The notes beneath the pieces are model-generated. The model saw only the letters and a program-made list of their open reading frames with translations. It searched no databases and was not told where the DNA came from. Made by a program: the position numbers and the translations under genes. From positions 1 to 38,208 of the forward strand of contig NZ_JAFKIC010000153.1 of assembly GCF_017306585.1 (NCBI RefSeq): 38,208 bases of DNA. The letters are read 5' to 3'. Below, in pieces: positions 15,693 to 26,403 of the stretch. Within the stretch, counting starts at the first letter, position 1. Each line of letters starts with the position of its first letter. This DNA is from Mesorhizobium sp. Lineage in GTDB: Bacteria; Pseudomonadota; Alphaproteobacteria; Rhizobiales; Rhizobiaceae.

Positions 15693-18600
15693 ATGATCTT
15701 TGTCGGAACCTCGAAGCGTAGTCTTTTCCATCAGGCTTGGCTGACGGCTCTGGCCGTCTTGCTGCTATGCCTTGCCGTGCCGACGCAGCGTGCTGGCGCG
15801 AAAGACCTGAAGGGCGTGGCGCTGGTCGTCGGCCAGTCCAAATATGAACACATCGCAGCCCTTCCCAACCCGGCCAACGACGCCCGCGACATGGCCAAGA
15901 TGCTGACCGATCTCGGCTTCGACGCGCGAAGCGTCACCGACCGCGATGCCGGCAAGCTCAGGCGCGATCTGGAACGGTTCGCCGAGGATGCGGAAGGCGC
16001 CGACGTTGCCTTCATCTATTATTCCGGCCATGGCATCGAAGCCGGCGGCGAGAATTATCTGGTTCCGGTCGATGCCGACGTCTCCTCGCTGAAGGACGCC
16101 GGCCAGGCGCTGGTGCCGATTTCAGCCGTCATGGAGGAATTGAAGAAGACCGTGCCGGTGACGATCATGCTGCTCGACGCCTGCCGCACCAATCCGTTTC
16201 CGGCAGATGCCCTGGTGCGGCGTGCTCCCACCGCCTCCGCCGAACCGATCGGCGCAGGCGGCCTTGAGCCGGTGCGCGGCGCCAAGGCGCTCGGCAACGC
16301 TCCGGCGGACGACGCGAGCCTCGGCACGGTGGTCGGCTTCGCCGCCGAACCGGGCCGCCCGGCGCTGGATGGTGCCGCCGGAGAGAACAGCCCTTATGAC
16401 GACACGCTGCTGCGCCACCTCGCGGCAATGAAGGGCACCGAGTTCGGCTCGGTCATGCGCATGGTGACCGAGGAAGTCTATCTCGACACCAAGGCCAGGC
16501 AGCGCCCCTGGGTCAATGAAAGCCTGCGGCGCCTGCTCTATTTCGGTGTTGCTCCGCCCGAACCCACCGGCGACGACGGCCTGATCACCGGCGAGCGGCG
16601 GCAATTGCTGTTGACGATTTCCGACCTGCCCGACCCCAAGCGCGCGCAGGTGGAACTGGCCTCGCTGCAGGATGGCGTGCCGCTCGACGCGCTCTACGGC
16701 GTGCTGAAGGCGCTTGGCACCGAGAAGATCCCGGAAGATCCCACCGATCTGCAGAAAGTGCTCCAGGCGCAGTCCGAGCGCCTGAAGAAGATGATCGCGG
16801 AAAGCGACGCGCTGCGCACCGACGATCCGGAAATCAAGCGGCTCGTCGCCTCCGCCGACAAGGCGATCGGCCAGGGCGCGATCGCGACGGCGCGCAAATT
16901 CCTCGATCAGGCCGTTGGCCGGGTCGAGGAAACCAGCGACACGGTCGACCAGGCAGAAGAACTGATCAGGCAGAAGCGCATCGCCGATGCCGCGATCTAC
17001 GCCAAGCGGGCCGATGCCTCGGCGCTCGTCTTCGACTACATGGCGGCGGCAAAGGACTACGCCAAGGCTTTCTCGCTGATCGAGAAATGGGACGAGAAGC
17101 TGCGCTGGAACTACAAGAACCAGGAAGCGGAGGCGCTGAATTCCTATGGCTATGCAACGGGCGACCTCAAGGCGCTGCAAGGTTCGATCGACGCCTATCG
17201 CGCCATCCTGAATTTCATCCCCAACGGCGAACAGGACCGCGACTGGGCGATCACCCGCAACAATATGGCGGTGGTGCTGCAGAACATCGGTGAGCGCGAA
17301 ACCGAAACCGCGCATCTCGAAGAGGCGGCACAGATCTTTCGCGATTCGCTTGCCGTCTTCGAACGCGTGAAAGACGACCGCAACTGGGCCGCGGCACAGA
17401 ACAATCTCGGCAATGTGCTCTTGAAGATCGGCGAACGCGAAAGCGACCCGAAGCGCCTCAATGAAGCGGTGGCGGCGATGCGCGCCACGCTGGAGAAGCG
17501 CCCGCGCGACAAGCTGCCGCTCGACTGGGCCGCATCGCAGAACAATCTTGGCCTTGCCCTCTATGCGCTTTCCGAGCGCGAACCGGCCGGCGAGCACTTG
17601 GCGCAGGCTGAGGCCGCCTACCGGCTGGCGCTTCAGGAGTACACAAGGGCAAAAACGCCCGTGGAATGGGCGATGGTCGAGAACAATCTCGGCAACACCC
17701 TTGTCACGCTGGGCATCCAGTTGAACCAGAAGGCGAAAATCAGCGAGGCGGCCGATGCCTTCCGCGCGGCGCTCGAGGTGCGAACCCGCGAGACCTTCCC
17801 CGTTTCCTGGGCAACCAGCCGGCTCAATCTCGGCAATGCGCTGAGCGGCATAGCCCGCTTCGACATGGGCACCGGCACGCTCGAGGAGGCCGCCGCCGCT
17901 TATGACGATGCTCTGACGGTCTTCACGCGCCAGCGCTTCCCCATGGATTGGGCATCGGCCCAGAACAATCTCGGTTCGATCTACCAGACGCTTGGCCAGC
18001 GCGGCCGCGACGCGAACAGGCTGGAACAGTCTGTAGCGGCGTTCCAGGCCGCCAGGCAGGTCTATGTCAGGCGCAAATTTCCGCTCGATTGGGCGATGAG
18101 CTACTACAATCTCGGCAACACGCTGCAGCTTCTTGGCGCGGTGACCGAGAAGCCGGAGCACTACAGCGCGGCCGCCGACGCCTACCGCGACGCCCTGCGC
18201 GAATACAAACGCGAGACGAACCCGCGGCAGTGGGCGCTGACCCAGGCCGGTCTCGGCTCGACGCTGCACTGGCTGAGCATGAGCAATGCCGATCCGAAAA
18301 TCCTGCATGATTCCATCGCGGCGCGCCGGGCGGCGCTGGAAGTGCTGACCATCGAGGCCGCGCCGGTCGATTGGGCCAACGCCCAGAACGGCATCGGCAT
18401 GAGTCTGCTCAATCTCGGCACCATCGAGCGGACCGGAAAATATCTCGACGAAGCCGAGGCGGCGTTCACCGCGACGCTGAAGGTGTTCACCAGGGAGAGC
18501 CAACCCCTGCAATGGGCTTTCGAACAGAACAATATCGGCGACGTCTACTGGAACCGCGCCAGCTATGGCGGCGGCAAGCCTCAATATCTCAAGGCTATCG

Positions 18601-18710
18601 AGTTCTTCGAGAATGCCAAACAGGGGTTCAACGAGGCGGGCTACACGATCCCGATCCCGCTGACCGACCAGAAGATCGATCTGGTGAAGAAGCAACTCGC
18701 CAAAAAGTGA
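15693..18710 (+). CDS. Exported caspase-like (peptidase C14) protein with TPR-like repeats
   Basis: A 1005-aa protein. After an N-terminal export signal (about residues 1-36, hydrophobic core LTALAVLLLCLAVP) comes a caspase-fold p20-like domain (about 38-285). It has the catalytic dyad: His113 in YYSGHG and Cys164 in LLDACR. Asp162 and Asp129 are near the expected acidic S1 pocket. A linker with helical segments (about 300-505) follows, then about ten repeats of roughly 45-50 residues (about 510-960), each carrying a WAxxQNNLG-like core (for example RNWAAAQNNLGN, LDWAASQNNLGL, MDWASAQNNLGS), which should fold as a TPR solenoid. The TPRs suggest protein binding. Bacterial caspase homologs usually prefer Arg/Lys or Asp substrates; specificity is unknown here. 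Export places it in the periplasm, unlike cytoplasmic CHAT-TPR immune proteases. Confidence 0.9.
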   Translation: MIFVGTSKRSLFHQAWLTALAVLLLCLAVPTQRAGAKDLKGVALVVGQSKYEHIAALPNPANDARDMAKMLTDLGFDARSVTDRDAGKLRRDLERFAEDAEGADVAFIYYSGHGIEAGGENYLVPVDADVSSLKDAGQALVPISAVMEELKKTVPVTIMLLDACRTNPFPADALVRRAPTASAEPIGAGGLEPVRGAKALGNAPADDASLGTVVGFAAEPGRPALDGAAGENSPYDDTLLRHLAAMKGTEFGSVMRMVTEEVYLDTKARQRPWVNESLRRLLYFGVAPPEPTGDDGLITGERRQLLLTISDLPDPKRAQVELASLQDGVPLDALYGVLKALGTEKIPEDPTDLQKVLQAQSERLKKMIAESDALRTDDPEIKRLVASADKAIGQGAIATARKFLDQAVGRVEETSDTVDQAEELIRQKRIADAAIYAKRADASALVFDYMAAAKDYAKAFSLIEKWDEKLRWNYKNQEAEALNSYGYATGDLKALQGSIDAYRAILNFIPNGEQDRDWAITRNNMAVVLQNIGERETETAHLEEAAQIFRDSLAVFERVKDDRNWAAAQNNLGNVLLKIGERESDPKRLNEAVAAMRATLEKRPRDKLPLDWAASQNNLGLALYALSEREPAGEHLAQAEAAYRLALQEYTRAKTPVEWAMVENNLGNTLVTLGIQLNQKAKISEAADAFRAALEVRTRETFPVSWATSRLNLGNALSGIARFDMGTGTLEEAAAAYDDALTVFTRQRFPMDWASAQNNLGSIYQTLGQRGRDANRLEQSVAAFQAARQVYVRRKFPLDWAMSYYNLGNTLQLLGAVTEKPEHYSAAADAYRDALREYKRETNPRQWALTQAGLGSTLHWLSMSNADPKILHDSIAARRAALEVLTIEAAPVDWANAQNGIGMSLLNLGTIERTGKYLDEAEAAFTATLKVFTRESQPLQWAFEQNNIGDVYWNRASYGGGKPQYLKAIEFFENAKQGFNEAGYTIPIPLTDQKIDLVKKQLAKK

Positions 18711-19359: not shown

Positions 19360-19587
19360 GAGCGCGGCGCTCGATCGCAGCGCAGCAAGCAGTGTTGCCA
19401 AAATGCCACCACCGAAAGAAGCCACGAATTCGCCGCGACAATGCCGCTTGCGACAACCCGTCGCAGGCTCTATAGCCGCGCTCCCGGTCACGAGAACCGA
19501 AGTGAGCACAACGGTTGGAGCTTTCGTCTCCGCCCGTGCAGGCGGCTTTGCCGCCCTGTATACGGTGCCGCTTTGGGGATTGGGATC

Positions 19588-19661
19588 TCGGATATAGCTC
19601 AGCGGGAGAGCGCCGGATTTGGGTCCGGAGGTCGCAGGTTCGAATCCTGCTGTCTGAACCA
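19588..19661 (+). tRNA. tRNA-like sequence, Pro(UGG)-type, with abnormal anticodon loop
   Basis: All four stems can be drawn. The acceptor is TCGGATA with TGTCTGA (seven pairs, two of them G-U). The D stem is GCTC/GAGC, the anticodon stem CCGGA/TCCGG, the variable loop AGGTC, and the T stem GCAGG/CCTGC with loop TTCGAAT. Discriminator A and an encoded CCA end it at 19661. The anticodon loop has only six bases (TTTGGG; or eight if the closing A-T pair is opened), whereas a tRNA needs seven. Read as TT-TGG-G the anticodon is UGG (proline). It may be a pseudo-tRNA, a tRNA mimic, or an odd tRNA. The next tRNA-like element begins in its CCA. Confidence 0.6.
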
Positions 19662-19731
19662 CGGATAGCTCAGTTGGGAGAGCATCAGACTTATAATCTG
19701 ACTGTCGAAGGTTCGATTCCTTCTCCATTGG
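19659..19731 (+). ncRNA. Second tRNA-like sequence (UAU anticodon) with defective acceptor stem
   Basis: It has a regular D arm (GCTC/GAGC), anticodon arm (TCAGA/TCTGA, 7-base loop CTTATAA, anticodon UAU at 19692-19694), variable loop and T arm (GAAGG/CCTTC, loop TTCGATT). The acceptor (CCACGGA against TCCATTG) has two mismatches in tRNA register, or forms GGA/TCC plus CCA/TGG around an internal loop if shifted by one base. No CCA follows (GCCT). It uses the CCA of the preceding element as its own first three bases, so both cannot be processed intact from one transcript. tRNA-Ile(UAU) is rare in bacteria, where AUA is normally read by a lysidine-modified CAU tRNA. I favour a tRNA-mimic ncRNA or a pseudo-tRNA. 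Confidence 0.55.
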
Positions 19732-20091
19732 CCTGATAAGCCAGCACCCTGCCACGGTGTTATCTGAAAACGGTCCGGGGACTGGAATGCTGAAGACCTG
19801 ATGGACGGCTCAAGCCTTCGGGCGTGGGCCGAACAGACGGTCTGACGCCATCGGCTCGCGGCCAGGCCCGCGGTGATGGTCAAGGCGCGGCGTCGCCGGC
19901 AAGGGAGGCCAAGGCTTCCCGCGCCCGCTTCGCTGCCTCGCGACCCGCTCCCGAAGGCCCGCCACGGATCGATGCCACCGGTCCCCGGATCATTCGTGCC
20001 CGGACCATGAAGACGTGAAACGAGAAACGAAGGGAAGATCGACGCATGACGTGACGCCTCGCATGGGGCCATGCCCGACAGGAGTAAGACA
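19732..20091 (+). other. 360-base untranslated stretch before the slipin gene
   Basis: I see no convincing gene here. Directly after the second tRNA-like element a bulged hairpin can form: GATAA (19735-19739) and CACC (19745-19748) pair with GGTG (19756-19759) and TTATC (19760-19764). The rest is GC-rich with short local inverted repeats, ending in the slipin ribosome site GGAG (20081-20084). It may be a long 5' leader of the slipin mRNA that carries the tRNA-like domains at its start. Confidence 0.4.
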
Positions 20092-21237
20092 ATGACGACC
20101 ATTCTCGATAAGGCTCTTGGACGCGTACGCGTCCTCGTAAAGGAAAATGAACGTGCCATCACCCTCCAGAAGGGTGAGATCAAGGCTGTCCTGATGCCGG
20201 GTGAGCATTCGCTCTCCAACCGGCGCCAGAGCCTTGAAGTGTCCCGGCACGATCTGAAGAACCCGGAATTCGTTTCGGCGTACGAGAAGGCGTTGTTCGA
20301 CAAGCTCCCGGATGTCGCCGCGCGTCATTTCACCGTCGTTCGCACGGGACGCACGGAGGTCGCCGTCATCGAGCGTGACGGCAATCTGCACGCCGTCCTG
20401 GCGCCGGACCGCAAGCTCGTGCTGTGGACGGATGCCGGGCCGTGGAAGGTGACGCTGGTCGACACATCAGTCGATCTCGCCATCGACCCGGCGGTCATGC
20501 GCCGGCTCGGCCAGGCCCGCAAGACGGAGCTGATGTCCGTGCATCCCGTGGTGGATGGACAGGCCGGGCTGCTGTTCATCGACGGCGTGCTTGTACGCAC
20601 GCTCGCCGCTGGCGTGCATGGCTTCTGGAATGTCGGGCGCATGGTGCAGACCAAGGTCGTCGACCTCAAGCGCCAGTCGCTCGATGTCGCCGGGCAGGAA
20701 GTGCTGACCAGGGATCGCGTCACGATCCGGGTCAACATCTCCGCCGAGTACCGGGTCGCCGATCCGGTCAAGGCGGTGAGCGCCGTGAAGGACTTCTCCG
20801 AAGCCCTTTACCGCGCCCTGCAGTACGCCTTCCGCAAGACGCTGGGCGCGCTCACGCTCGACCAGATCCTTGAAAAGAAGGTGACGGTCGACGAGGAGGC
20901 CGCGTCCAAGGTCCGTGCCGACATGGCCGAGATCGGGGTCGAGGTCAGCGATATCGCGCTTAAGGACGTGATCCTGCCGGGCGAGATGCGCGAGATCCTC
21001 AACCAGGTGGTTTCGGCCGAAAAGCAGGCCGAGGCCAACGTCATCCGCCGCCGCGAGGAGACGAACGCCACGCGTTCCCTGCTCAACACGGCCAAGGTGA
21101 TGGCGGAGAACCCGGTGATGCTGCGGCTGAAGGAGCTCGAAGCCCTGGAAGCCATCGCCGGCAAGGTCGAGAGGCTGACCGTCCACAACGGAACGGGCGG
21201 GCTGCTGAACGACCTGGTCAAGCTCCGCGACAGCTAA
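20092..21237 (+). CDS. Slipin (SPFH/band 7) protein without membrane anchor
   Basis: From ATG 20092 (GGAG at 20081) the protein is 381 aa. A charged N-terminal region of about 145 residues, with no membrane-spanning segment, precedes an SPFH domain (about 148-320: AGLLFIDGVLVRTLAAGVHG, then VDLKRQSLDVAGQEVLTRD and RVTIRVNISAEYRVADPVKA). A C-terminal helical, coiled-coil-prone tail follows (AEKQAEANVIRRREETNATR, NPVMLRLKELEALEAIAGKV). Ordinary stomatins have an N-terminal membrane hairpin, so this one probably assembles as a soluble or peripheral ring. This long-N-terminus slipin type is one I associate with RtcB/RtcA RNA-repair operons, but no rtc gene is in the window. Instead tRNA-like sequences lie upstream. 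It is followed by a strong terminator, so it is a single-gene unit. Confidence 0.88.
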   Translation: MTTILDKALGRVRVLVKENERAITLQKGEIKAVLMPGEHSLSNRRQSLEVSRHDLKNPEFVSAYEKALFDKLPDVAARHFTVVRTGRTEVAVIERDGNLHAVLAPDRKLVLWTDAGPWKVTLVDTSVDLAIDPAVMRRLGQARKTELMSVHPVVDGQAGLLFIDGVLVRTLAAGVHGFWNVGRMVQTKVVDLKRQSLDVAGQEVLTRDRVTIRVNISAEYRVADPVKAVSAVKDFSEALYRALQYAFRKTLGALTLDQILEKKVTVDEEAASKVRADMAEIGVEVSDIALKDVILPGEMREILNQVVSAEKQAEANVIRRREETNATRSLLNTAKVMAENPVMLRLKELEALEAIAGKVERLTVHNGTGGLLNDLVKLRDS

Positions 21238-21259: not shown

Positions 21260-21295
21260 GGGCCGCCTGGCGATCAGGCGGCCCTTCTTGCGTTT
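21260..21295 (+). terminator. Intrinsic terminator after the slipin gene
   Basis: A perfect 10-bp stem, GGGCCGCCTG (21260-21269) with CAGGCGGCCC (21275-21284) and a 5-base loop, is followed by the T-rich TTCTTGCGTTT. It separates the slipin unit from the acpXL cluster. Confidence 0.85.
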
Positions 21296-21414: not shown

Positions 21415-21696
21415 TTGTCCACCACGTTCGACAAAGTCGCCAAGATCATTGCCGACACCAGCGAGATCGATATCGACACCATCACGCCCGAGAGCCACAC
21501 GATCGACGATCTCGGCATCGACAGCCTCGATTTCCTCGACATCGTCTTTGCCATCGACAAGGAATTCGGCATCAAGGTGCCGCTGGAAAAGTGGACGCAG
21601 GAAGTCAATGACGGCAAGGCTTCCACCGATGATTACTTCGTCATGAAGAACCTGTGCGCCAAGATCGACGCGCTGGTCGCCGCAAAGACCGCCTGA
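21415..21696 (+). CDS. acpXL: Acyl carrier protein AcpXL for very-long-chain fatty acid
   Basis: A 93-aa acyl carrier protein that carries the growing 27-hydroxyoctacosanoate chain for lipid A. The 4'-phosphopantetheine site is Ser37 in [12 protein letters not shown]. The long C-terminus ([18 protein letters not shown]) and overall sequence match AcpXL rather than the housekeeping AcpP. The start codon is TTG at 21415, chosen because AAGGAAG lies seven bases upstream and no ATG or GTG fits the family N-terminus [12 protein letters not shown]. It leads the cluster with fabF2XL, fabF1XL, adh and lpxXL, all on the same strand. The terminator at 21260-21284 isolates it from the slipin, so its promoter should lie in 21290-21414. 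Confidence 0.95.
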
Positions 21697-21751
21697 CATC
21701 GGCTGGTGCGCGGCCTTGACGGGCTGCGCCGCCTGACCCACAAAGCCGCTC

Positions 21752-22942
21752 ATGAGCAGCCCCCGCGACGTCGTCATCACTGGTATCGGCCTTGTTTCCT
21801 CGCTTGGGGAAGGTCCGGACGCCCATTGGCAGAAGCTATCACAACCCGGCCTGCAGCCGGTGCTCGAAGCGGCGCGCTTCGCGCCCTACACGATCCATCC
21901 GCTGCCCGAGATCGACTGGAACCTGCAGATTGCCAAGCGCGGCGACCAGCGGCAGATGGAAACCTGGCAGCGGCTCGGCACCTATGCCGCCGGCCTGGCG
22001 CTGGACGATGCCGGCATCAAGGGCAATGACGACCTCTGTGCCACCATGGACATGGTTGTAGCCGCCGGCGGCGGTGAGCGAGACGAGGCGGTCGACGCCG
22101 CCATTCTCGCCGCCTCGGAAAGCCGCAACGACCGCGACGTACTGCTCAACGAGAAGCTGACGACCGAACTGCGGCCGACACTCTTTCTCGCTCAGCTTTC
22201 AAACCTGCTCGCCGGCAACATCTCCATCGTCCACAAGGTGACAGGCTCGTCGCGCACGTTCATGGGCGAGGAAGGCGCCGGCGTCTCCGCCGTCGAGACG
22301 GCTGCCGCGCGCATCCGCTCCGGCCAGTCCACGCACATTCTGGTCGGCGGCGCCTTCCAGACCGAACATTCCGACATGCTGCTCGGCTATGAATTGGCCG
22401 GCTATCTGCATCGCGGCCCCTGGAAACCGGTCTGGCAAAGACAGGGCGCCGAGGGCGGCGGCGTGGTGTCCGGTTCCGGCGGCGCCTTCCTGGTGCTGGA
22501 ACAGCGCGAACACGCGGTGAGCCGTGGCCGCAAGATTTACGCCGAACTCGGACCGGTCGTCTCCAGCCGCGCCAGGCGCTCGCGCGGAGAACTCGATACT
22601 GAGATCGCCGCGCTGCTCAGCCGGGCGGCGCTGCCCGACGGCAAGTTGCTGGCAATGTCGGGCGCATCCGGCGCGCATGCCGCGACGGCTTCTGAAAAAG
22701 CAGCGTTCGAAGCCCATCCGGCGGTCGCGGCGCGTGGCTTCGCGACGCTTACCGGCCATATGAAGGAAGCACAGTTTCCTTTCGCCGTGGCGTTGGCGGC
22801 ACTGGCCGTCGATCGCAAGGCCGCCTACCCCGTCTTCGACGCCACGGCTGAGAAGCCGTTTGAAGGCATTCCCGCCAGCGTCCTTGCAACGGCGATCGGC
22901 TATCACCAATTCGAGGGCATGGCGCTGGTCAACGCCGCGTAA
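21752..22942 (+). CDS. fabF2XL: FabF2XL, ketosynthase-like protein lacking the active-site Cys
   Basis: A 396-aa thiolase-fold ketosynthase homolog of the VLCFA lipid A cluster. The N-terminus (DVVITGIGLVSSLGEG) and the overall order are KS-like. Where an active KS has TACxSG at the nucleophile elbow, this protein reads MGEEGAGVSA (about 171-180), so the Cys position is an acidic residue (E174 by my alignment). This parallels the Gln in the EQAGG of polyketide chain-length factors. The first catalytic His motif (HGTSTP) is also absent (SGASGAH instead), whereas a TGHMKEA element survives near the second. It should therefore be catalytically impaired and act with FabF1XL, perhaps setting chain length. 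It starts 55 bases after acpXL; the ATG at 21752 has only a weak ribosome site. Confidence 0.9.
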   Translation: MSSPRDVVITGIGLVSSLGEGPDAHWQKLSQPGLQPVLEAARFAPYTIHPLPEIDWNLQIAKRGDQRQMETWQRLGTYAAGLALDDAGIKGNDDLCATMDMVVAAGGGERDEAVDAAILAASESRNDRDVLLNEKLTTELRPTLFLAQLSNLLAGNISIVHKVTGSSRTFMGEEGAGVSAVETAAARIRSGQSTHILVGGAFQTEHSDMLLGYELAGYLHRGPWKPVWQRQGAEGGGVVSGSGGAFLVLEQREHAVSRGRKIYAELGPVVSSRARRSRGELDTEIAALLSRAALPDGKLLAMSGASGAHAATASEKAAFEAHPAVAARGFATLTGHMKEAQFPFAVALAALAVDRKAAYPVFDATAEKPFEGIPASVLATAIGYHQFEGMALVNAA

Positions 22943-22987
22943 GGCGGCCAGCGCAACTCACGTTTCAAAGGTTAAGAGGGCTTCCGG

Positions 22988-24259
22988 ATGGCCAAACTCA
23001 GAGATCACATGGGCAGGCCGATCGTCGCCGTAACCGGCATCGGCGTGGTGACCTCGCTCGGTGTCGGCAAGGCGGACAATTGGGCGGCGCTGACCTCGGG
23101 CAAGTCGGGCATCCATCCTATCACCCGCTTTCCGGTCGATCACCTCAACACCCGCATCTCCGGCATGGTCGACTTCCTCGCGTCGAGCTCAAAGGGCGCC
23201 AGCCCCCTCACCTACGAGCTGGCCGAGACCGCCGCACGTGAGGCGGTGGCCGAATCCGGCCTCGATTCCGGCGATTTCGGAGGTCCGCTCTTCCTCGCTT
23301 CGCCGCCGGTAGAGCTCGATTGGCACGAGCGCTTCGCGCTCTACAATTCCGACAAGGACGATGCCGGCGCCGAAAGGCTGCTGCGGGTTGCGCGTGGGCT
23401 GAAGGAACTGGATGTTTTCGAGACCACCCAGTTCGGCTCGATCGCCGACCGGCTCGCCGACCGGTTCGGCACGCGCGGCCTGCCGATCACGCTGTCGACC
23501 GCCTGCGCCTCCGGCGCCACCGCCATCCAGCTCGGCGTCGAAGCGATCCGGCGTGGCGAATGCGACCGGGCGCTGTCGATCGGCGCCGACGGTTCGGCGA
23601 CCGCCGAGGCGTTGATCCGCTTCTCCCTGCTTTCGGCGCTCTCCACCCACAACGACAATCCTGAGAAGGCGTCGAAACCCTTCTCCAAGGATCGCGACGG
23701 TTTCGTGCTGGCGGAAGGCTCCGGCGCGCTTGTGCTGGAATCGCTGGAGGCAGCACTCGCTCGTGGGGCTGCCGTTCTCGGAATCCTGAGCGGCTGCGGC
23801 GAAAAGGCCGACGATTTCCACCGCACCCGCTCCAAGCCGGACGGCTCGCCGGCGATTGCCGCTGTCCGCGCGGCCCTTGCCGATGCCGGCTTGAGCGAAG
23901 ACGAGATCGACTACGTCAACGCGCACGGCACCTCGACGCCGGAAAACGACAAGATGGAGCACCTGTCGCTGTCGACGGTGTTCGGCGAGCGGATCGGCTC
24001 GATGCCGATCTCTTCCAACAAATCGATGATCGGCCATACGCTGTCGGCCGCTGGCGCCATCGAGGCTGCGTTTTCGCTGATGACGATGCGCGAAAGCGTC
24101 ATTCCCCCGACCATCAACTACGACAACCCAGACCCTGCGATCGTGCTCGACGTGGTGCCGAACAAGAAGCGCGATGCTCAGGTTCGCACGGTCCTGTCGA
24201 ACTCCTTCGGCTTCGGCGGCCAGAACACCTGCCTTGTCATGGCGCGGGAACCGGTCTAA
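22988..24259 (+). CDS. fabF1XL: FabF1XL, beta-ketoacyl-ACP synthase II-type enzyme for VLCFA
   Basis: A 423-aa active-type ketosynthase that elongates acyl-AcpXL toward C28. The full Cys-His-His set is visible: Cys173 in STACASG, His313 in NAHGTSTP and His350 in SNKSMIGH; the C-terminal NSFGFGGQN loop is also present. The start at 22988 follows AAGAGGG. A short N-terminal extension (MAKLRDHMGR) precedes the usual PIVAVTGIGVVTSLG. It follows fabF2XL by 45 bases in the same operon, and the pair probably forms a heterodimer analogous to KS and chain-length factor. A 116-base gap with an inverted repeat separates it from the dehydrogenase. Confidence 0.94.
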   Translation: MAKLRDHMGRPIVAVTGIGVVTSLGVGKADNWAALTSGKSGIHPITRFPVDHLNTRISGMVDFLASSSKGASPLTYELAETAAREAVAESGLDSGDFGGPLFLASPPVELDWHERFALYNSDKDDAGAERLLRVARGLKELDVFETTQFGSIADRLADRFGTRGLPITLSTACASGATAIQLGVEAIRRGECDRALSIGADGSATAEALIRFSLLSALSTHNDNPEKASKPFSKDRDGFVLAEGSGALVLESLEAALARGAAVLGILSGCGEKADDFHRTRSKPDGSPAIAAVRAALADAGLSEDEIDYVNAHGTSTPENDKMEHLSLSTVFGERIGSMPISSNKSMIGHTLSAAGAIEAAFSLMTMRESVIPPTINYDNPDPAIVLDVVPNKKRDAQVRTVLSNSFGFGGQNTCLVMAREPV

Positions 24260-24277
24260 GCGAGCGGTTTCCGCCAA

Positions 24278-24323
24278 TGCATGTCGCGCAAAAGTAACCT
24301 CGGATTTGCGACAACGACATGCA
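24278..24323. repeat. Dispersed-type palindromic element between fabF1XL and adh
   Basis: TGCATGTCG (24278-24286) and CGACATGCA (24315-24323) are perfect arms; inside them CGCAAA (24287-24292) pairs with TTTGCG (24305-24310). The sequence looks to me like a palindromic repeat common between genes of Mesorhizobium and other rhizobia. A second GC-rich palindrome (GCGCGACGCGC) follows at about 24341. Only this copy is in the window. Confidence 0.7.
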
Positions 24324-24375
24324 TAAAACAAAGAGCTGAAGCGCGACGCGCTTTAGAACAGAACCGACAGGCTCC

Positions 24376-25404
24376 ATGCGCGCTCTGCAACTTATAGAGG
24401 ACCGCCGTCTTGAGACGGTGGACCTGCCACCCCCGCCGCCGCCAGCACTTGGCGAAGTCACGTTGCGCATCAAGGCGGTGGCGCTGAACCACATCGATGT
24501 CTGGGGCTGGCGCGGCATGGCCTTCGCCAAGCGCAAGCTGCCGCTGGTCGTCGGCGCCGAAGCCTCCGGCGAGGTCGAGGCCGTCGGCCCCGGCGTATCC
24601 AGCCTGCTGCCGGGACAATTGGTGTCGATCTACGGCGCGCGCACCTGCGGCCTTTGCCGCGCCTGCCGCGAGGGCCGCGACAATCTGTGCGAACACGTCT
24701 CGGGCGTTCACGGCTTCCATCTCGACGGCTTCGCGCAGGAGAAGATCAACCTGCCAGCTCGCCTGCTCGTCCCTGCCCCGCCCGGCGTGACCGACATCGG
24801 CGCGGCGGTGGCGCCCGTTACCTTCGGCACGGTCGAGCACATGCTGTTCGACAATGCCAGGCTGCAACCCGGCGAGACGATCCTCGTCCATGCCGGCGGC
24901 TCCGGTATCGGCTCCGCCGCCATCCAGCTCGCCAAACGGATGGGCTGCACCGTCATCACCACGGTCGGCTCGAACGACAAGATCGACAAGGCCAAGGCGC
25001 TTGGCGCCGACCATGTCATCAACTATCGCGACGACCGCTTCGAAGGCGTCGTACGCAAGCTGACGAAGAAAAAAGGCGTCGATGTCGTGTTCGAACATGT
25101 CGGCGCCGACACTTTCGCCGGCTCGATGCTGTGCCTAAAGCGCGGCGGCCGCCTGGTGACCTGCGGCTCGACATCGGGCGTCTCGACGCAGATCAACCTC
25201 ATGCAGCTCTTCCAGCAGCAGTTGAAACTGCTCGGCTCCTTCGGCTGCCGCATGGAAAACATGACCAACGCCATGCAGAAGATGGCGGCGGGACAGGTCG
25301 CGCCCGTCATCGACACCGAGGTCGGCTTCGATGACATCGACGCCGCGCTGAAGCGCATGGAAGGCCGCGACGTGTTCGGCAAGATCATCCTGCGCATCGC
25401 CTGA
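24376..25404 (+). CDS. adh2XL: Zinc-binding dehydrogenase of the VLCFA/lipid A cluster
   Basis: A 342-aa medium-chain dehydrogenase/reductase. A GroES-like N-terminal domain holds the structural-zinc cysteines Cys91, Cys94, Cys97 and Cys105 (TCGLCRACREGRDNLC). A Rossmann domain follows with VHAGGSGIGSAAIQLA as the NAD(P)-binding loop (about 172-187). The usual catalytic-zinc Cys near the start is replaced (ALNHIDVW), as in quinone-oxidoreductase-like members, so it may be an enoyl or quinone reductase rather than an alcohol dehydrogenase. In rhizobia this gene sits between fabF1XL and lpxXL, and a role as the enoyl reductase or oxidation step of VLCFA synthesis has been supposed. I recall the symbol adh2XL from rhizobial work. 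It ends 12 bases before lpxXL. Confidence 0.88.
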   Translation: MRALQLIEDRRLETVDLPPPPPPALGEVTLRIKAVALNHIDVWGWRGMAFAKRKLPLVVGAEASGEVEAVGPGVSSLLPGQLVSIYGARTCGLCRACREGRDNLCEHVSGVHGFHLDGFAQEKINLPARLLVPAPPGVTDIGAAVAPVTFGTVEHMLFDNARLQPGETILVHAGGSGIGSAAIQLAKRMGCTVITTVGSNDKIDKAKALGADHVINYRDDRFEGVVRKLTKKKGVDVVFEHVGADTFAGSMLCLKRGGRLVTCGSTSGVSTQINLMQLFQQQLKLLGSFGCRMENMTNAMQKMAAGQVAPVIDTEVGFDDIDAALKRMEGRDVFGKIILRIA

Positions 25405-25416
25405 GGCCTGACGTCG

Positions 25417-26403
25417 GTGCTCAAGAAGTTCCGCCGCGATCTCAGGTTTCGCTTTGGCCGTCAGCTGCGCCAGGTGAACTACTGGCTGGTCGCGCGCGCC
25501 GCCATGATCATCATGTCGGTACTGCGCCTGCTGCCGGTCGACAGCGCGCTGAATTTCGCCGACCGCGTCGCGCGCCTCATCGGCCCAAGGGTCGGACGCC
25601 ACCAGGTCGCCATCGACAATCTGCGCAAGGCCTATCCGGAGAAGAGCGAGGACGAAATCCAGGCCATCGCCTCCGACATGTGGGGTAATATGGCCCGGCT
25701 TGCCGCCGAGTACATCTTTCTCGATGCCCTGTTCGACTATGACCCCGCCGCCAGCAAGCCGGGCCGCGTCGAGGTCAAGGGCATAGAGCACTTTGTCGAG
25801 ATCGCCGCCGAAAAGCAGCCGCACATCGTCTTCACCGGCCATCTCGGCAATTTCGAGCTCCTACCGGTGGCCGCGGCCACTTTCGGCATGAACATCACCG
25901 CGCTGTTCCGGCCGCCCAACAACCCCTATCTCGCCGACTACATCCTTTCGACGCGGCGATCGACCATGGGCGGCTTGCTGCCGTCGATGGCCGGCGCCTC
26001 CTTTGCCCTTGCTGGCGTGCTGGAAAATGGCGGCAATATTGGTGTTCTGGTCGACCAGAAGTTTTCCAACGGCCTCGACACGACCTTTTTCGGCCGCCCC
26101 TGCCAAAGCAACCGGGTGCTCGGCACGCTTGCCCGCCACTATGACTGCGACGTCTATCCCGCCCGCTGCGTCAGGCTGCCAGGCAATCGCTTCCGGCTCC
26201 AGATCGAGGACAAGCTGGTGTTGCCGCGCACAGCCGACGGCAGCGTCGACGTTCACGCCACCACCCAGATGCTCAACGACGTCGTCGAACGCTGGGTGCG
26301 CGAGGATCCCGGCCAGTGGATGTGGTTCCACAAAAGGTGGGAGATCACCAAATGGCGGCGCAAGCCCCGCCCGCCGGCAAAAGCACAGCCAGCAAAGAGC
26401 TGA
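25417..26403 (+). CDS. lpxXL: Lipid A VLCFA acyltransferase LpxXL (HtrB/LpxL family)
   Basis: A 328-aa inner-membrane acyltransferase that moves the C28 hydroxy acid from AcpXL to lipid A. The HX4E motif is His142 to Glu147 (GHLGNFE). Other family blocks are RVEVKGIEHF, LVDQKFSNGL and the C-terminal WMWFHKRW. One membrane-associated segment lies near residues 22-40 (YWLVARAAMIIMSVLRLLPV). The start is GTG 25417, just 12 bases after the dehydrogenase stop; the family N-terminus (LKKFRRDLRFRFG) fits. It closes the cluster. Confidence 0.93.
   Translation: MLKKFRRDLRFRFGRQLRQVNYWLVARAAMIIMSVLRLLPVDSALNFADRVARLIGPRVGRHQVAIDNLRKAYPEKSEDEIQAIASDMWGNMARLAAEYIFLDALFDYDPAASKPGRVEVKGIEHFVEIAAEKQPHIVFTGHLGNFELLPVAAATFGMNITALFRPPNNPYLADYILSTRRSTMGGLLPSMAGASFALAGVLENGGNIGVLVDQKFSNGLDTTFFGRPCQSNRVLGTLARHYDCDVYPARCVRLPGNRFRLQIEDKLVLPRTADGSVDVHATTQMLNDVVERWVREDPGQWMWFHKRWEITKWRRKPRPPAKAQPAKS

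Follow-up and report, generated by a model that had tools for sequence, protein, structure and literature searches.

Tandem tRNA-like RNAs precede a slipin gene in Mesorhizobium, a conserved arrangement with relatives at RNA-repair loci

In rsr-yrlA-rtcBA operons, a tRNA-mimic RNA and its partner protein are encoded beside rtcB, under RtcR. The locus described here is similar, but its partner protein is a slipin and not Rsr, and its genome has no match to RtcB (PF01139), RtcR (PF06956) or RlaP, nor to TROVE (PF05731) at E 0.001. YrlA (RF02553) also carries D- and T-arms, whereas the RNA of this locus has full cloverleafs, anticodon arms and hypervariable anticodons and scores below the YrlA cut-off. 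Hughes et al. found that the Salmonella nuclease left YrlA itself uncleaved (PMC7790460). A second comparison is PaFlo8 (PA14_60630) of P. aeruginosa, an SPFH protein in an rtcA-rtcB-rtcR locus, likened here by its description; the passages considered mention no RNA, and no effect of its single deletion in the assays they cover (PMC13086221). The TrcR regulon of Anabaena brings tRNA-type RNAs, RtcB and a slipin (alr0739-alr0740) into one translation-stress response, slipin and rtcB sharing it with a 26-tRNA operon (PMC10272220). There, however, trn is a separate tRNA operon, and alr0740 is again likened by description. The vault particle, consisting of major vault protein and vault RNA, is also among the closest known systems. 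A search of the open-licence literature found no paper linking a slipin with tRNA-like RNA, a link that Burroughs and Aravind 2016 (10.1093/nar/gkw722) may describe in part, and no reported function for the slipins of RNA-repair loci.

The DNA studied, referred to as the window, is the whole stretch of 38,208 nt at positions 1-38,208 of contig NZ_JAFKIC010000153.1, forward strand, from Mesorhizobium sp. GCF_017306585.1. A promoter-like element, a leader hairpin, two tRNA-like elements and a UTR lead in this order to the slipin gene (Table 1). The original prediction, made from the window sequence, had described two abutting, defective tRNA-like sequences, about 360 untranslated bases and an anchorless SPFH slipin, and these descriptions hold, the last of them as a structural prediction. 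It had let the RNA start at 19588; the elements do begin there, but the conserved RNA starts about 100 nt earlier, with the promoter-like element and leader. The terminator it had given the slipin is readable by eye as a GC hairpin, but it went uncalled in a terminator scan. Four features had gone unnoticed: that the anticodon is hypervariable, that a leader is present, that the elements have a CCA in common, and that rtcB and rtcR are absent beside all the examined alphaproteobacterial and acidobacterial loci.

Table 1. Features of the tRNA-like RNA and slipin locus in window coordinates
Feature	Position	Strand	Evidence and remarks
Promoter-like element, CTTGCGA-N17-CTATAG	19448..19476	+	Kept in 45 unique Mesorhizobium loci aligned; putative function
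Structured leader RNA, bulged hairpin, core GUGCAGG...CCUGUAU	19490..19587	+	Fold z-score, covariation, entropy
tRNA-like element 1	19588..19661	+	RF00005 and ARAGORN; 6-nt anticodon loop UUUGGG, encoded CCA
tRNA-like element 2	19659..19733	+	RF00005 and ARAGORN; anticodon UAU, acceptor with internal loop
UTR between tRNA-like elements and slipin start	19734..20091	+	358 nt; conserved blocks, GGAG before start codon
Slipin (SPFH/Band 7), 381 aa	20092..21237	+	PF01145 E 1.2e-31; model pLDDT 86; fold searches
Terminator-like hairpin, 10 GC-rich pairs, then TTCTT	21260..21284	+	Read by eye from sequence

Both elements exceed the RF00005 cut-off of 29 bits, element 1 (19588-19658) with 62.3 bits and element 2 (19659-19731) with 59.6 bits. 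They abut and have one CCA in common, the 3' CCA of element 1 being the 5' acceptor strand of element 2. Both depart from the working tRNAs of the same genome. All 37 comparison tRNAs (30 loci) have 7-nt anticodon loops and none has an acceptor mismatch (0/37), whereas element 1 has a 6-nt loop and element 2 lacks a fully paired acceptor stem. The YrlA model gives 31.5 bits across both elements, sub-threshold against its cut-off of 69, and we reject YrlA membership; of the two covariance models, tRNA is matched above its cut-off and YrlA is not. A tandem tRNA-like array used as control also gives a partial YrlA match, at 18.8 bits, and part of the YrlA likeness is therefore due to tandem order. 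A plastid-ycf2 match on the minus strand, covering the reverse complement of element 2, was discarded as sub-threshold. The slipin start was placed behind the conserved GGAG, an in-frame ATG at 20071 being less likely. Its N-terminus consists of SPFH1-like beta modules with no membrane helix in the structure model and fold searches, and the protein is predicted to lack a stomatin-type N-terminal membrane anchor. It is unmatched among the PADLOC defence families. Slipins as a family form rings or cages.

To see how general the arrangement is, consider the 85 slipin relatives whose upstream DNA is long enough, including 19 from Mesorhizobium (L128 and L149 were set aside for short upstream sequence). 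An ARAGORN element is present in 72 and either that or a T-arm motif in 83. The ARAGORN elements within 700 nt are all on the slipin strand, with ends 191-625 nt upstream. A more even Pseudomonadota sample was built from 20 of the 23 hits in the phylum (G000, G015 and G030 left out), less L216, which has 71 nt upstream. Here a tRNA-like element precedes 17 of 19 slipin relatives versus 0 of 20 other SPFH genes. The RNA-slipin arrangement is far beyond chance, which tRNAs elsewhere in the same loci put at 0.018 per 700 bases. Homologous slipins that have no tRNA-like element, the case named as contrary to the original prediction, are a minority only. They number 2/85 in the larger set (L141 and L142, the latter with elements further upstream) and 2/19 in the even sample (L218 and L234, searched over 750 nt upstream, both beside rtcR and rtcB). 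Two enterobacterial records have a T-arm-like motif only, and one Clostridia record has a T-arm-bearing form. Among the larger clusters listed, the orphan branch has no conserved protein neighbours beyond apparent lineage synteny. These comparisons show that RNA and slipin form an old, conserved unit that extends across Pseudomonadota and Acidobacteriota.

Of 61 Mesorhizobium genomes, 34 have both RNA and slipin, 26 have neither and none has one only; G019 was set aside, as 30 nt of contig follow the match. Integration often takes place at tRNA genes, and the elements could in principle be remnants of such a site, or tRNA genes in decay, with no relation to the neighbouring slipin. This strict co-occurrence, the empty control SPFH genes and the invariant, covarying stems described below all run counter to that explanation. 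The conservation of stems and unit speaks against remnants as the main explanation, and we consider it very improbable.

Element 1 is base-paired in 44 distinct Mesorhizobium rows, with covariation in the acceptor and T stems. In element 2, 44 distinct rows show no variation in the stems of the D, anticodon and T arms or in the three inner acceptor pairs. Across the alignment 97.7% of cells are paired, and changes on both sides of a pair number 42 versus 16.3 in shuffles. The anticodon stems have 0 changes in 20 columns (45 unique Mesorhizobium loci). Elbow signatures are nearly universal among the Mesorhizobium elements (D-loop GG in 78/79, T-loop TTC in 79/79), and CCA is encoded in 34/79 as called; these 79 pool elements 1 and 2, and the motif separating the two is also present in some D-loops. 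The anticodon loops behave differently. There are 14 different loops among 35 unique second elements, the slipin tree requires 14 changes at anticodon position 34 and 16 at position 35 of element 2, and orthologous elements swap anticodons with the body unchanged. Seven-base loops outside Mesorhizobium have a purine at 37 in 52/59 and U33 in 34/59. The RNA keeps a tRNA body, in its elbow signatures and anticodon stems, while its anticodon varies freely. A total of 14 changes is also reached by 10/94 ungapped intergenic columns and 2/39 fourfold sites; the anticodon changes no faster than the fastest neutral-like sites, and its variation is therefore compatible with simple lack of constraint. 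Compared with the genome's own 31 tRNA loops, exact matches are found for 2/14 loop types (14/35 second elements), and we rejected the idea that the loops are exact copies of the genome's own.

One might argue that these are spare or special tRNAs, real ones that are made under stress and take part in translation, an idea put forward for long tRNA operons. The good cloverleafs with their elbow signatures and the CCA encoded in some elements would fit, as would the longer arrays with differing anticodons in L137, L142 and L147. However, the 6-nt loop is the commonest form of element 1 and stop-codon anticodons occur among the elements, making them unsuited to translation. The mismatched acceptor of element 2 and the exchange of anticodons on a constant body are also difficult to reconcile with such a function, which we regard as improbable.

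The leader (19495-19587) has a fold z-score of -2.73 and a mean entropy of 0.218 bits, and its hairpin shows both-sides changes across 20 alphaproteobacterial loci. The strict leader motif occurs in 25/66 non-Mesorhizobium upstream regions versus 10/66 in the reverse-complement control, and the leader is therefore claimed only within Alphaproteobacteria, by alignment. A conserved, covarying hairpin is what would be expected of a Y-RNA-like scaffold, in which the hairpin would be the docking site for a ring or cage of slipin, the mimics would recruit tRNA-handling proteins and the unused anticodon would drift. Such a scaffold would account for the free anticodon drift and could draw on the sub-threshold YrlA match, but the tandem array control also produces a YrlA score, and the kept purine 37 and anticodon stems are left unexplained. 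Also in its favor, a Ro60-type protein and YrlA adjoin rtcR and rtcB in 2/3 rtcR-bearing Mesorhizobium loci examined; YrlA scores 72.0-74.4 bits in two sister genomes. We rate a scaffold as rather unlikely.

Downstream of the elements, conserved blocks in the UTR reach the slipin start codon in an alignment of 30 loci, with a mean entropy of 0.357 bits. This continuity, together with the shared strand and upstream position of the ARAGORN elements, raises the possibility of a cis sensor, whereby mimics in the slipin mRNA leader are cut in the anticodon loop or processed by RNase P and so set slipin translation, letting the locus sense anticodon nucleases directly. The orphan branch lacks RtcR and would therefore profit from a different sensor; the tree cited for this absence leaves out L113, L135, L068 and 16/19 named Mesorhizobium loci. 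However, leader and both elements together are no more stable than shuffles (z -1.17), and the elements of L137 span an array of >2 kb that misfits a simple leader. A cis sensor is, in our estimate, unlikely.

The promoter-like element departs from its pattern twice among the 45 aligned loci, once in the -10 (L040) and once in the repeat spacer (L088). A perfect inverted repeat, TGCGAC-AACCC-GTCGCA (19449-19465), overlaps its -35 and spacer and is possibly an operator. By exact matching the repeat occurs once in the genome, with no further sites elsewhere; a reversed control pattern also occurs once. The element was not called by a promoter scan, which is E. coli-type. Among the best 80 of 553 genome_contigs relatives, the set used here, none has a sigma-54 site with at most one mismatch within 900 nt upstream, and a sigma-54 promoter in Mesorhizobium was rejected on the lack of a site at one mismatch.

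Outside Alphaproteobacteria, the unit is often beside rtcB and partly also beside rtcR and RlaP. In the Pseudomonadota sample, rtcB is at most 5 kb away in 14/14 loci outside Alphaproteobacteria and 0/6 inside. Neither rtcB nor rtcR adjoins any examined locus of Alphaproteobacteria or Acidobacteriota. A link to RNA repair is supported, since relatives of this slipin that have the same kind of RNA adjoin rtcB and rtcR. Within Mesorhizobium, rtcR is present in 2/34 genomes with the unit versus 7/27 without (p 0.06). At this p value mutual exclusion is not claimed, but the rarity of rtcR in genomes with the unit suggests that the unit does not need the repair operon. RNA and slipin as a unit, standing alone without ligase or regulator in the window genome and linked to RNA-repair operons, had all been anticipated by the original prediction and are borne out here. 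The decoy, sensor and scaffold roles that it had proposed are candidates of differing probability.

Taken together, we tentatively favor the explanation that the locus is an orphan branch of a unit tied to RNA repair, in which a tRNA-mimic RNA is paired with a slipin and the mimics may be baits for anticodon nucleases. For the mimics, a decoy role against such nucleases seems the most likely function. A single locus would yield the slipin and a structured RNA made up of the leader hairpin, a varying number of tRNA mimics (one to several) and an untranslated tail. The mimics would offer nucleases real-looking anticodon arms that are dispensable for translation, and the anticodon would drift, or be selected to match the nucleases encountered by a lineage. 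Where the operon includes RtcR, tRNA cleavage would induce the bait together with ligase and slipin. Mesorhizobium would use a vegetative-type promoter instead of RtcR, and this promoter may have a repressor site of its own. By analogy with its family the slipin would form a ring or cage, and it may bind the RNA through the leader hairpin or bind the nuclease-bait complex, a partnership modelled on the ring protein Rsr and the tRNA-mimic YrlA of the sister operon type. We count for the bait reading the 0/20 control SPFH genes, paired structure, kept elbow signatures, anticodon-like loops, variable anticodons, the 6-nt loops and stop-codon anticodons that do not suit translation, repair context and the Anabaena regulon. 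Counted against it are the uncut YrlA, the neutral-like anticodon rate, the 2/14 loop match, the rarity of rtcR, the T-arm-only records and L218 and L234.

Relatives of the pair adjoin known RNA-repair genes, and the pair may therefore be an overlooked RNA-based guard against tRNA-cutting enzymes. If so, RNA-repair loci have a protective RNA arm in addition to the ligase, the varying anticodons document which tRNA-cutting nucleases each lineage has met, and the slipins of RNA-repair loci gain a testable substrate. A bolder version, which we doubt, would have a widespread, unrecognised bacterial RNP in which a vault-like slipin cage and a tRNA-mimic RNA under diversifying anticodon selection form a renewable nuclease bait; its regulated form would then be found at the loci adjoining rtcB and rtcR, and its autonomous form at the loci of Alphaproteobacteria and Acidobacteriota.

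Carriage by phage was seen for one relative, an E. coli-like locus, among 19 candidate stretches in viral_contigs. Plasmid-collection relatives with 80% coverage came to 9 records, of which 6 were examined. A reduced relative, in which a slipin is accompanied by an RlaP homolog, is present in 1617/5426 complete E. coli genomes (coverage at least 80%), which makes the question workable in a model species.

The window slipin is 94% identical to the slipins of named Mesorhizobium relatives, which places its genome of 7.09 Mb (385 contigs, completeness 99.99%) in that genus. The two tRNA-like elements upstream of it have a CCA in common, which is both the 3' end of element 1 and the 5' acceptor strand of element 2. 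The anticodon loop of element 1 has six nucleotides, the acceptor stem of element 2 holds an internal loop, and 358 untranslated bases lie between element 2 and the slipin gene. A promoter-like element, CTTGCGA-N17-CTATAG, and a conserved leader precede both elements. Across 45 unique aligned Mesorhizobium loci, the promoter-like element and its inverted repeat are conserved with two single departures, found in L040 within the -10 and in L088 within the spacer of the repeat. The repeat occurs once in the window genome and may be the site for a regulator. Rfam 15 at gathering threshold found no family but tRNA in this region, and a looser search matched other families at sub-threshold scores only.

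Features of the tRNA-like RNA and slipin locus in the window
Feature	Position	Strand	Description
Perfect inverted repeat TGCGAC-N5-GTCGCA	19449-19465		Overlies promoter-like element; no change in either arm across 45 unique Mesorhizobium loci
tRNA-like element 1	19588-19661	+	RF00005, 62.3 bits; ARAGORN
tRNA-like element 2	19659-19733	+	RF00005, 59.6 bits; ARAGORN
Slipin		+	381 aa, 3' of untranslated stretch; PF01145, E 1.2e-31

The original prediction proposed that the RNA and the slipin belong together, and their distribution bears this out. A close slipin (~83% identity or more) is present in 34 of 61 Mesorhizobium genomes. tRNA-like elements lie 5' of it in all 30 loci first fetched, where ARAGORN calls two in 25 and alignment recovers both in every one; the remaining four slipin loci have two each. 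Searched as DNA, the RNA region matches strongly (E < 1e-50) in these 34 genomes and also in G019, which was set aside because its contig stops 30 bases past the match. With that genome excluded, 34 genomes have both and 26 have neither. In three of the 34 the slipin match is split across two frames (G043, G045 and G058; loci L160, L159 and L158), and the tRNA-like elements are still there. One further genome retains a slipin remnant of ~45 residues without the RNA.

Beyond the genus, we collected 87 relatives by slipin resemblance, including 80 genome loci that are the best 80 of 553 relatives. Two had too little upstream DNA, leaving 85 (19 of them Mesorhizobium). ARAGORN finds a plus-strand element within 700 bases 5' of the slipin in 72 of the 85 and a minus-strand element in none; a T-arm motif occurs in 65, and one or the other in 83. 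The background is 25 ARAGORN tRNAs in the other 975,363 bases of the same loci, or 0.018 per 700 bases. Among 398 Pseudomonadota genomes sampled more evenly, the slipin subfamily was found in 23 at E 1e-60 and 20 loci were fetched; among the 19 with upstream DNA, 14 have ARAGORN elements, three a T-arm motif only, and two (L218 and L234) neither. As a control, 20 other SPFH genes of related genomes had no tRNA-like element upstream. By these comparisons of sequence, tRNA-like RNA and slipin constitute a conserved unit. Longer arrays occur in some gammaproteobacteria. At one of these, L137 (1351-4039, a metagenome-assembled genome), nine ARAGORN elements with differing anticodons lie around an AAA ATPase gene, the last before the slipin, and four of the nine lack the D-loop GG.

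In 44 distinct Mesorhizobium rows, 97.7% of cells of the two cloverleafs are paired, falling to 36-51% in a sliding control, and both-sides changes number 42 against 16.3 in shuffles. In element 1 these changes fall in the acceptor and T stems, and in element 2 at a single outer pair; all other stems are without variation in the genus. Across 20 alphaproteobacterial loci, covariation is seen in the leader hairpin, the T-arm of element 1 and the cloverleaf of element 2, anticodon stem included. The leader alone is more stable than shuffles (z -2.73), while leader plus both elements is not (z -1.17). Of 79 Mesorhizobium elements, nearly all retain the elbow signatures. Regarding what such a fold is for, a scaffold RNA seems doubtful to us and a sensor acting in cis unlikely.

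The anticodon behaves otherwise. Across 45 unique Mesorhizobium loci, entropy is zero in the two anticodon stems and 0.89 bits in the element 2 loop, where positions 34 and 35 reach 1.74 and 1.52 bits. Mapped onto the slipin tree, position 34 requires 14 changes, position 35 requires 16 and the 20 stem columns none, compared with averages of 2.4 for UTR columns, 4.2 for fourfold sites (14 or more in 2 of 39) and 7.4 for ungapped intergenic columns (14 or more in 10 of 94). Turnover at the anticodon thus equals or exceeds that of typical unconstrained sites, in an arm otherwise frozen. ARAGORN reports 14 loops among 35 unique second elements and 17 among 43 first elements. Outside Mesorhizobium, 59 seven-base loops carry 28 anticodons, some for stop codons, with A at position 37 in 43, A at 38 in 41 and U at 33 in 34. 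The RNA looks selected for tRNA shape rather than for any one anticodon. We regard it as very improbable that the elements are spare tRNAs.

In the Pseudomonadota sample, rtcB, encoding an RNA ligase, lies within 5 kb at 14 of 20 loci: all 14 outside Alphaproteobacteria and none of the six inside. It directly follows the slipin in eight, lies downstream in four more, no further than 2.1 kb from the slipin start, and upstream in two; 12 of the 14 have a tRNA-like element or T-arm. The regulator gene rtcR is present at seven of the 20, six with a sigma-54 site (one mismatch). Among the 87 resemblance-selected loci, rtcB occurs in five (one a Clostridia record) and rtcR in four, and several gammaproteobacterial loci have neither within the flanks examined. 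In Citrobacter, an RlaP gene (PF10127) and a gene annotated as rtcR adjoin the same slipin. A quick tree built from 89 slipin rows, with a weakly supported root split (59) and short flanks at some loci, places every rtc-linked row in one half together with beta-, gamma- and Clostridia rows, and none among 54 alphaproteobacterial and acidobacterial rows. Judged by gene neighborhood and slipin resemblance, the unit is akin to the rtc-linked loci. Of 5426 complete E. coli genomes, 1617 carry a reduced form, slipin plus RlaP homolog (L063), at 80% coverage or more; the record examined has a T-arm-like motif and sigma-54 site upstream and no adjoining rtcR, and the locus may be a second RtcR target.

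Searches of the window genome gave no match to RtcB, RtcR, RlaP or TROVE. RtcB matches occur in 4 of 34 Mesorhizobium genomes with the unit (two partial) versus 7 of 27 without, and on another contig in five of six genomes of slipin relatives from the same order (G068, G069, G071, G092, G097 and G098), so RtcB can occur elsewhere in unit-bearing genomes. Three rtcR-bearing Mesorhizobium loci were fetched (G005, G009 and G025); two have a Ro60-type protein and a true YrlA beside rtcR and rtcB, a sister arrangement to the slipin unit, and the third has no YrlA match.

We class the unit as a variant of an already known kind, the tRNA-mimic RNAs of RNA-repair operons; none of the papers found in the open-licence literature searched joins slipin with tRNA-like RNA. 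The likeliest reading, which we hold tentatively, is that the RNA would serve as a decoy for anticodon nucleases with the slipin as its partner. Elements and slipin would be transcribed as one RNA, the slipin would bind it, nucleases would cleave it, and regulation would pass through the palindrome. The decoy reading is supported by published results: RtcR reacts to tRNA fragments and YrlA was proposed as a competitive inhibitor, although it was not cut (PMC7790460), and in Anabaena the targets that TrcR represses include a tRNA operon, rtcB and a slipin gene (PMC10272220).

Upstream of the unit, the window encodes a 1005-aa protein with a caspase domain (PF00656) and TPR repeats (15693-18710), for which PADLOC gives a weak caspase match. 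A further run of genes, at 21415-26403, encodes an acyl carrier protein, two ketoacyl synthases, a zinc alcohol dehydrogenase and a lipid A acyltransferase, and resembles the rhizobial very-long-chain lipid A cluster.
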